DNA of 64,000 nucleotides from Lutimonas zeaxanthinifaciens (lineage in GTDB: Bacteria > Bacteroidota > Bacteroidia > Flavobacteriales > Flavobacteriaceae): contig NZ_CP129964.1 of NCBI RefSeq assembly GCF_030503675.1, positions 1,302,001 to 1,366,000 of the forward strand, read 5' to 3'. Shown here one piece after another: positions 30,514 through 33,307 of the stretch. Each line of letters begins with the position of its first letter. Within the stretch, counting starts at the first letter, position 1. A program made the position numbers and the translations under genes. Below the pieces are notes generated by a model. That model was not told where the DNA came from, ran no database searches, and saw nothing but the letters and a program-made list of their open reading frames with translations.

Positions 30514-31632
30514 ATGCTTAGTAACAGCACAAATATCTTTCCGTCAACAATGGAGGAAATAAAAGATCGAATTTTACAAATTGATCCGGTTGCTTATGCC
30601 TCAACACGAAATTATAAGAATGGTAAAATTACAAAGCTGAGCCCTTATATCTCGCGCGGCGTAATTTCCACCAGATTTGTATTTGATCAAATAATGAATC
30701 TGGGTTTGCCCTGGAATAAAATTGAAAAATTGGTTCAGGAACTGGCCTGGCGAGATTATTGGCAGCAAGTCTGGAAGGCGAGGGGCAATGACATCAACAA
30801 GGATCTTAAAAGAAAGCAGGAAAGCGCGGAGCATTTTGAGTTACCGGTTTCGATCATGGAGGGCACTACTGGTATCGAAGCGATTGACAAGGCTGTCAGT
30901 GACTTTTATGATACAGGGTATATGCATAATCACATGCGGATGTATGTAGCGGCATTAGCCTGTAATGTAGGAAGGTCGCATTGGTTGAATCCGGCGCGTT
31001 GGATGTATTACAATCTATTGGATGGCGACTGGGCAAGTAATGCCCTGAGCTGGCAATGGGTGGCAGGTTCAAATGCAAATAAAAAGTACTATGCCAACCA
31101 GGACAACATCAATCGATATTTTTCAACTGATCAAAAAGGAACCTTTCTTGATATCTCTTATGATAAATTTGATGAACTGGATATTCCCGAAGAATTATCT
31201 AAAACACAGAGATTTGAAGGAGCTACAGATTTATCGAATTTACCGGAATTAAAAGCGTCATCAATTGACAAGAATCGTAAAACCTTACTTTACAACTACT
31301 ACAACCTTGATCCAAACTGGCATCAAGATGAAGATTACCAAAGAGTATTATTAATGGAGCCTTCATTTTTCAGGCAGTACCCGGTAAGCAGAAAGTGTAT
31401 TGAATTTTCTTTACAGTTAGCTGAAAATATCGAAGGTGTAAATGTATATGTTGGTGAATTCGAGGAGCTCAAGAGGTATATCAAGGCCGATTATATGGTC
31501 TTTAAAGAGCATCCGACAAATCATCATTATGAGGGAAAAGAAGAGCCGAGAGAATGGATGTTTGAGGTAGAGGGGTATTTTTCATCATTTTTTGGTTTCT
31601 GGAAGAAATGTAAGAAACATATAAGGAAATGA
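30514..31632 (+). CDS. Photolyase-type FAD-binding domain protein with altered domain order
   Basis: The first ~235 residues are the helical FAD-binding domain of the photolyase/cryptochrome family: [24 protein letters not shown], the [10 protein letters not shown] helix and [24 protein letters not shown]. The normal N-terminal antenna (alpha/beta) domain is absent. Instead, residues about 255-345 after the FAD domain look like an alpha/beta fold: [14 protein letters not shown], then [15 protein letters not shown] and a terminal [16 protein letters not shown]. The usual PYFRIFNP continuation is replaced. This could be a permuted photolyase or a non-repair flavoprotein. It overlaps the next gene by 4 bp. 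Confidence 0.85.
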
Positions 31633-31784
31633 AAAAAAAGAAAAGTGAGTTGCCGAGTAAAAAATGTCCTGTTTGCGGATTGCCTTTTTCATGGAGAAAG
31701 AAATGGGAGAAAAACTGGGAAGAAGTGAGGTATTGCAGTGAAAGGTGCAGAAGAAATAAATCCGTAAAAAATTCAATAGTATGA
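31629..31784 (+). CDS. DUF2256 zinc-ribbon mini-protein
   Basis: A 51-residue basic protein starting [20 protein letters not shown]. Cysteines are arranged CPVC ... RYCSERC, a four-Cys zinc ribbon, with the [12 protein letters not shown] segment characteristic of DUF2256. Its ATG overlaps the stop of the upstream photolyase gene and its TGA overlaps the ATG of the downstream one (both ATGA), so it is translationally coupled on both sides. DUF2256 genes are commonly beside cryptochrome/photolyase genes, but their function is unknown; RNA or DNA binding is a guess. Confidence 0.88.
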
Positions 31785-33307
31785 CAAGGATAGGGCTGGT
31801 ATTTCCGCATCAATTATTAAATGATCATGAGATGTTCCATACATGTGATCAGCTTTTTCTTATCGAAGAATTTCTTTTTTTCAGGCAATTTAATTTTCAC
31901 AAACAAAAACTGGCCTTTCATCGAGCAAGTATGAAAGCGTTTCAACAGAGGCTTGAAGAAGCTGGTTCAAAACTGACCTATATTGAAAGCACGGAGGAGG
32001 GTTCTGACATAAGACATTTAATTAGAAACCTTTTCTCTGAATTCCGGAAAGAATCAGGGGAAGAGGAAAAAAAAAGAAGTAAGGAATTTGAGATAAACTT
32101 TATAGACCCCACGGATAACTGGCTTTCAAAACGTGTTAAGGAAACCTGTGTGAGCCTTAATATTCCTTACATTAAATATGAGTCTCCATTATTTATAAAT
32201 AATGGAAATGAATTGGAATCTTTTTTTAGAAAGGATAAAAAATCTTTTTTTCAAACTACTTTTTACAAACAGCAAAGAAAGCGTCTTGGTCTACTTATGA
32301 CCGAGGAAGGCAAGCCTCAGGGAGGTAAATGGACCTTTGATACAGAAAACAGAAAAAAAATTCCAAAGAACAGCCAGCCTCCAGTCGTGAATTATCCTGA
32401 AAATAATGCGGTCTGGGAAGAAGCCGTTCAATATGTAGGGAACTTATTTCCAGATAATCCCGGAGAAATAACAACTTCTCCTTTGTATCCTGTTGATCAT
32501 AAGGAGGCAGAATCCTGGTTATCTCAATTCCTGGATTTTCGTTTTCATTTTTTTGGTGATTACGAAGACGCCATCGTGGTCAAACAATCGATACTGCATC
32601 ACAGCCTTTTGTCCCCTCTGATTAATGTAGGGCTTCTCTTACCTAAAGAAATTGTAGCTCAAAGTGTTCATTATGCTGAAATAAATGATGTGCCATTGAA
32701 TTCTGCAGAAGGGTTTATACGTCAGATCATAGGATGGCGCGAATTTATCAGAGGAATTTACGAGTATAAAGGAACTTACTCCCGAACAAGAAATTTTTGG
32801 GGATTTAAACGTAAAATACCAAATAGTTTTTACACGGGAACAACGGGCATTGATCCCATTGATCAAACCATCAAAAAAGTTTTAAAGACAGGGTATTGCC
32901 ACCATATTGAGCGGTTAATGGTGCTTGGGAATTTTATGTTGCTCTGTGAGTTTGATCCGGATGAAGTGTATCGCTGGTTTATGGAACTTTTTATTGATGC
33001 CTATGACTGGGTCATGGTTCCCAATGTATATGGAATGAGTCAGTTTTCGGATGGAGGAGTTTTTGCGACCAAACCATACATAAGTGGATCAAACTACCTG
33101 AAAAAGATGAGCGACTATAAGCCTGGAGACTGGACAGCCACATGGGACGGCCTTTTCTGGCGATTTATTGATCAGCATCAGGATTTCTTTAAGCGAAACC
33201 CCAGAATATCGATGCTATATTATTCTTATCAGCGAATGGCTCAAGAGAAAAGAGAAAATCATTTAATACATGCGGAGACTTTTTTAAAGTCACTCGATCA
33301 GGTTTAG
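31781..33307 (+). CDS. PhrB/CryPro-type photolyase without Fe-S cysteines
   Basis: 508-residue member of the prokaryotic (6-4) photolyase/CryPro family. The antenna domain opens [18 protein letters not shown]-domain blocks are [49 protein letters not shown] and [17 protein letters not shown]. Characterised relatives bind a 4Fe-4S cluster through four cysteines, three of which lie straight after the MSDY motif; here that stretch (from Met443) reads [16 protein letters not shown] with no cysteine, and the fourth position also lacks one. Antenna lumazine and FAD binding remain plausible. Repair of UV (6-4) lesions or light sensing is inferred. Confidence 0.9.

Follow-up and report, generated by a model that had tools for sequence, protein, structure and literature searches.

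The window analysed here is a stretch of 64,000 nucleotides from Lutimonas zeaxanthinifaciens. Three consecutive genes on its forward strand are listed in Table 1 together with the residues discussed below. The ATG of the DUF2256 gene overlaps the stop codon of the preceding 372-aa gene (ATGA), and its own stop codon overlaps the ATG of the photolyase gene. Since starts and stops overlap one after another on the same strand, the three genes likely form one operon. The 372-aa protein matched solved photolyases only up to residue 212, with about 160 C-terminal residues unmatched. It is perhaps of the reversed-order type, comparable to Phr7 in the available part of PMC9426592.

Table 1. Genes and sites of the photolyase locus (positions within the window)
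Feature	Position	Strand	Evidence
Second photolyase-fold gene, 372 aa	30514..31632	+	FAD_binding_7 at residues 74-211, no DPRP match
DUF2256 protein (PF10013), 51 aa, Cys4 motif	31629..31784	+	Pfam E 4.3e-22
Putative cluster-free prokaryotic (6-4)-type photolyase, 508 aa	31781..33307	+	DPRP (PF04244) and FAD_binding_7 (PF03441); AlphaFold2, Foldseek
Residues 8-10 (FPH), antenna pocket "right wall", L-G-D in PhrB	31802..31810	+	Pocket residues per available part of PMC9178010
Pro359 codon, site of PhrB Cys350 (first cluster ligand)	32855..32857	+	Alignment with 4dja
Met412 codon, site beside FAD N5 (PhrB Glu403; S. elongatus PhrB Met399)	33014..33016	+	Site per available part of PMC9178010
Residues 447-456, shortened loop replacing PhrB Cys438, Cys441 and Cys454	33119..33148	+	Alignment; flanked by model helices 437-444 and 451-465

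The photolyase ORF matched DPRP over residues 6–231 with 180.1 bits (cut-off 22.1) and FAD_binding_7 weakly with 28.6 bits (cut-off 27). The protein thus has both the DPRP antenna domain and the photolyase FAD domain that mark the family. Most or all of its length matched solved (6-4) photolyases, with E-values of 3e-80 for 7ykn and 1e-78 for 4dja. Eight solved sequences were matched, namely the Vibrio, Agrobacterium (wild type and mutants), Synechococcus and Caulobacter enzymes and Rhodobacter CryB. These results agreed with the first-pass annotation, which had read the gene as a PhrB/CryPro photolyase over its whole length.

The cluster ligands of Agrobacterium PhrB are Cys350, Cys438, Cys441 and Cys454, termed completely conserved among FeS-BCPs in the accessible text of PMC3204975. 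In the alignment with the solved enzymes, Cys350 lay opposite Pro359 of the window protein, Cys438 and Cys441 opposite gaps, and Cys454 opposite Ala453. The PhrB segment MSDYCDTCRYDPKERLGDNACPFNALYW, with 28 residues, was opposite 18 residues, and the loop was therefore 10 residues shorter. With P, gap, gap and A at the four positions, the ligand set of an FeS-BCP was lacking; both the absence of the cysteines and the shortening of the loop had been claimed in the first pass. The window protein's own cysteines are residues 22, 123, 373 and 389, and none of them is at a ligand site. In an alignment of 36 cluster-free sequences, C22 and C123 were unconserved, C389 was invariant and C373 nearly so. 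The Cys350 site was Pro in 109 of 111 cysteine-free rows. A long-branched sequence of the Bacteroidota sample, L177, had an unusual loop, QGFKTDADGAALFDALFW, and Leu at this site.

The three-dimensional structure was predicted by AlphaFold2 with 36 sequences (pLDDT 84.8, pTM 0.88); the ten-residue blocks with pLDDT under 65 were 91–100, 181–200, 261–270 and 411–430. In the model, helices 437–444 and 451–465 are connected by a short turn at the position of the ligand loop of clustered enzymes. C373 is located in the turn preceding the active-site helix 376–388, and C389 directly follows this helix; both are away from the ligand sites. The best Foldseek match of the predicted model was PhrB 4dja (TM 0.87, rmsd 3.2), so the modelling proposed in the first pass gave the fold of PhrB. 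Eleven prokaryotic (6-4) chains had TM values of 0.83–0.87, and the other photolyases and cryptochromes among the matches listed had 0.50–0.55 by query length. By sequence and predicted fold, the window protein can be identified as a cluster-free prokaryotic (6-4)-type photolyase, which would contain no iron.

The best 80 of 585 matches in genome_contigs (55–64% identity) were taken as close relatives; according to their record titles, 78 were from Bacteroidota, 1 from Kiritimatiellota and 1 from Verrucomicrobiota. The ligand-free site was found in 79 of these 80 relatives from other genomes, and the remaining sequence (L021) was truncated and unreadable there. The recurrence of this site in 79 of the 80 ruled out both an error in sequencing and a chance loss confined to one gene. 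The reading frame is full-length, and the notion of a decaying gene, for which no support was found, has a negligible probability and is refuted by these conserved relatives. A joint alignment contained 206 sequences besides PhrB, among them that of the window. Four cysteines were present in 90 of them, none in 116, and one to three in no sequence. Rows removed beforehand were L001 (a row of the window itself), the truncated L021, L155 (the same protein as L044), L210 and L211 (from the genomes of L003 and L007) and the DUF2256 loci L190–L209.

A sample of 296 genomes from the phylum of the window, which was inferred to be Bacteroidota, was used to examine the distribution of the two types. 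DPRP was found in 100 genomes, with exactly one gene in each: 69 were four-cysteine and 31, the window included, cysteine-free. Both types in one genome were observed in 0 cases against 7.2 expected (P 1.6e-4, kinship ignored). Within the sample, 6 of 26 families and 2 genera contained both types. Since they occurred together within families and genera and never in one genome, this suggests that clustered and cluster-free types fill the same role. L007 is an Akkermansiaceae record; of 145 genomes from its phylum, 20 had DPRP, with four cysteines in 14 and none in 6. A total of 87 plasmid records matched, and the 8 that were fetched included 7 four-cysteine sequences and 1 cysteine-free sequence; the phage records searched gave no match. 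A viral (IMG/VR) contig, L189, carried a cluster-free photolyase at 504–2183, which was 41% identical, had the loop MSNYKKDNWCDVMDGLYW and fell on the same side of the tree.

The first pass had proposed a tree to look for a cluster-less Bacteroidota clade. With the ligand columns removed, the cysteine-free rows formed one side of a single branch with SH-aLRT 100 in both a 93-row and a 113-row tree, which were quick trees without bootstrap. The 93-row tree contained the window, two PDB-derived references, 8 plasmid rows, 29 cluster-free rows of the Bacteroidota sample, the viral row and, drawn at random, 20 of the 79 cluster-free genome_contigs rows and 32 of the 69 four-cysteine rows. The split with SH-aLRT 100 persisted when Verrucomicrobiota and one viral contig were added.

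The tree was rooted on the FAD-domain columns only, with photolyase-fold proteins of the fetched loci as the outgroup. The four-cysteine rows formed one clade in all four rooted runs, with supports of 98, 100, 67 and 100. In the first run, the outgroup joined the cluster-free side; its rows included a poorly aligned one with a branch length of 10. Without this row and L177, the root fell on a single cluster-free row, L164, on a branch of about zero length. Leaving out the long rows as well placed the root between the types; the cluster-free clade then had support 0 and the four-cysteine clade 67. With only outgroup sequences of the 372-aa type, the root was again on L164. The root was thus on the cluster-free side in three runs and between the types in one, and never inside the four-cysteine side. 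The four-cysteine state might even be the derived one. The first-pass annotation spoke of a loss of the cluster. A single branch separates the two types, and because the outgroup rooting was unstable, neither loss nor gain is claimed. A lone Cys one column before Cys454 was seen in the cluster-free sequences L129, L145, L152, L167, L170, L178, L189 and L226–L229. It is perhaps a remnant of the fourth ligand, a hint for loss and no proof of it.

Cluster-free prokaryotic (6-4) photolyases are already published, a finding that the first-pass annotation had itself named as counting against the novelty it assumed. Among 110 prokaryotic (6-4) photolyases, four cysteines were reported in all but 20 of subgroup M in the available part of PMC9178010. 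The same part names Prochlorococcus marinus PromaPL as cluster-free, citing FEBS J 2019. Several orthologs without the cysteines are mentioned in the text seen of PMC12082625, in which the function of the cluster was still "elusive" in 2025 and mutants affecting cluster binding in a four-cysteine enzyme were insoluble. Because of this insolubility, the cluster-free fold must be held in some other way. As described in PMC9178010 (in part), subgroup M and PromaPL resemble the window protein: they are of the DPRP type, the four cysteines are absent, the electron-transfer chain is not intact and Met is found at FAD N5. No difference from the window protein is known, the likeness being by description and not by sequence. 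No published account of the Bacteroidota cluster-free branch as such was found in the literature searched, which does not prove its absence, and the accessible parts of PMC9649867 and PMC9498864 contained nothing on a cluster-free branch. Likewise, neither the all-or-none pattern of the cysteines, nor the mutual exclusion of the two types within genomes, nor the DUF2256 link described below was found in that literature. The window gene is one of many, and its cluster-free state is a sound but not surprising find.

The catalytic core was investigated in the 116 cluster-free and 90 four-cysteine sequences. The residues at PhrB D179, D254, Q306, H366 (presumably the active-site His) and Y424 were kept in the window protein and in 116/116 cluster-free sequences. 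In the excerpts available, D179/D254 is the Mg pair of PMC12082625 and Q306 is taken from PMC3204975; the lesion role of Y424 is given by the title of PDB 5lfa. Based on these residues, light would excite reduced FAD in the conserved C-terminal domain, and the flavin would pass an electron to the lesion. His375, Gln315 and Tyr433 would be placed at the lesion, and Mg would be bound at Asp187 and Asp263. The [4Fe-4S] cluster would be absent from this scheme, with Pro at its first ligand and a short turn between two helices in place of the ligand loop. Very probably, the window protein is an active DNA photolyase that depends on FAD and belongs to the prokaryotic (6-4) family, on the cluster-free side and probably in subgroup M.

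The substrate of the cluster-free side might differ, with CPDs, or both CPDs and 6-4 lesions, being repaired rather than 6-4 lesions only. The available text of PMC9426592 states that most picocyanobacterial Phr2 lack the cysteines and favours CPD activity for them; even so, PromaPL is termed a (6-4) photolyase there. The joint changes of the cluster-free side around FAD and in its antenna pocket would also be consistent with another substrate. However, the compared lesion and active-site residues were those of the clustered enzymes in 116/116 sequences (His365 was Asn in 12 of the 116), and subgroup M is counted among the (6-4) photolyases in the part of PMC9178010 consulted. The window genome has three FAD_binding_7 matches, which leaves one or more other photolyase-fold genes that could act on CPDs. 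CPD repair is therefore considered unlikely, and the 6-4 lesion would be the substrate.

Near the flavin, with sites named according to the available part of PMC9178010, the PhrB Glu403 site beside FAD N5 was Met in 116/116 cluster-free sequences and in 4/90 clustered sequences. According to the same source, 37 of the 50 members that are not in subgroups A, B or G have Met at this site. The electron-transfer chain W342, W390, Y391 and Y395 of PhrB corresponded to Y351, W399, F400 and F404 in the window protein, and the chain was thus not intact. F400 occurred in 116/116 cluster-free sequences, yet also in 42/90 clustered ones; the W342 site was Y in 104/116 and W in 11/116 cluster-free sequences. 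A broken chain (W342Y, Y391F, Y395F) would fit a cryptochrome-like light sensor without repair activity, and a regulatory role of the related Rhodobacter CryB is reported in the text at hand of PMC9178010. Against this, the compared catalytic residues were invariant in 116 sequences, and the repair-active S. elongatus PhrB also has an interrupted chain, according to the same portion of that paper. The gene is coupled to DUF2256 and thereby to another photolyase-fold gene, and to no regulator. A sensor function is thus quite improbable.

The six most conserved FeS-BCP antenna contacts are L8, G9, D10, E33, K47 and M55. Only three of them were kept in the window protein, as E29, K43 and M51, and the other three were replaced (L8F, G9P, D10H). 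Both salt-bridge positions of the antenna "ceiling" were hydrophobic (F33, W114). In the cluster-free sequences, G9 was P in 113/116, D10 was H or N in 114, E37 was F or Y in 114, R108 was W in 94 and I51 was H in 110; E33, K47 and M55 were retained in 115/116, 115/116 and 113/116, respectively. Clustered sequences varied as well, with E37 kept in 51/90 and R108 in 45/90. Judged from the aligned residues, the cluster-free side has kept its catalytic core and has a rebuilt antenna pocket. The first-pass statement that both the FAD and antenna regions are well preserved thus applied to the core but not to the antenna. A DMRL synthase match was present in the window genome and a search for cofH gave no match there, and an 8-HDF antenna is therefore not expected in the window protein. 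8-HDF was set aside as its antenna, although it may be obtained by uptake from outside.

The solved enzymes can be compared on this basis. PhrB (4dja) and the window protein are alike in fold and in the Mg, His, Gln and lesion-Tyr sites, while the window protein has no cluster ligands, a shorter loop, a different antenna pocket, Met in place of Glu beside FAD N5 and Phe in place of the two proximal Tyr. Caulobacter 9hnk, Vibrio 7ykn and Rhodobacter CryB 3zxs are similar in fold and full-length sequence but hold the cluster; the ligand cysteines were seen in 7ykn and 9hnk, and for 3zxs they are given by the literature. Synechococcus elongatus PhrB (8ijy, TM 0.86) shares Met at FAD N5 and the interrupted chain, the latter as described in the source text available, but is of the clustered type and has an 8-HDF antenna, for which the window genome has no cofH match. 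The cluster-free side might, though this is less likely than not, be a separately built line and more than a PhrB that lacks its cluster, with an invariant Met at FAD N5, a rebuilt antenna and an often translationally coupled DUF2256 that would serve photolyases. In such a line, the Met may form the flavin link named in the title of 8ijy. Its pocket (P9, H10/N10, F33/Y33, W114, H47) might conceivably suit a chromophore other than that of PhrB.

From one genome to another, cluster-free enzymes take the place of clustered ones, and two genera of the sample contain both types; such enzymes provide natural test pairs for the role of the cluster. The first pass had expected a test of this role from a cluster-free member. 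The test is not a clean one: as the two enzymes of a pair also diverge around the flavin and in the antenna pocket, the comparison must control for changes at both sites.

DUF2256 was found in 94 of the 296 Bacteroidota-sample genomes (two matches were weak) and DPRP in 100, with both in 86. DUF2256 was present in 86/100 DPRP genomes versus 8/196 others (Fisher P 1.9e-49, kinship ignored), and 14 of the 100 were without it. Among 181 genomes with a FAD_binding_7 match, it was present in 85/97 with DPRP versus 7/84 without. The corresponding values in the phylum of L007 were 8/20 and 2/125 (P 1.2e-6, kinship ignored). Of 14 control genomes, 3 had DPRP; DUF2256 was present in 2 of these and in none of the remaining control genomes. 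The presence of DUF2256 thus tracks DPRP photolyases across genomes of two phyla. It lay less than 300 bp upstream on the same strand in 11/31 cluster-free versus 5/69 clustered Bacteroidota cases (P 8e-4, kinship ignored). Since it was also found in 84/94 genomes with at least two FAD_binding_7 matches, DUF2256 may follow photolyase-fold genes generally.

A Cys4-motif protein encoded directly upstream could be taken to mean that the protein retains a cluster, held by other cysteines or jointly with DUF2256, and the invariant C389 and nearly invariant C373 would fit this. But C22 and C123 are unconserved, and C373 and C389 are away from the ligand sites in the model. DUF2256 accompanied the four-cysteine type too, in 61/69 Bacteroidota-sample and 8/14 L007-phylum genomes, and was found in 0/6 cluster-free genomes of the latter. 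A retained cluster is accordingly very hard to credit. A cluster held jointly with DUF2256 was rejected because DUF2256 also goes with the four-cysteine type.

In the literature naming DUF2256, of which parts were available, the family is described merely as frequent in small proteins, and no photolyase role for it was found in those parts. The link to photolyases would point towards a function for this common family of small proteins. Twenty loci with DUF2256 away from DPRP were compared, 16 from genomes with DPRP elsewhere and 4 from genomes without it. The DUF2256 motif was found again in 19 of the 20. In 5 of these loci (L193, L194, L202, L203 and L204), the gene closest to DUF2256 also had a photolyase fold, as judged by a comparison with two queries only. 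In L207 and L208, which have DUF2256 and no DPRP, DUF2256 is adjoined by a small ORF with the motif DIDRIVxMAWEDRTPFEAI, which is putatively DUF2805-like.
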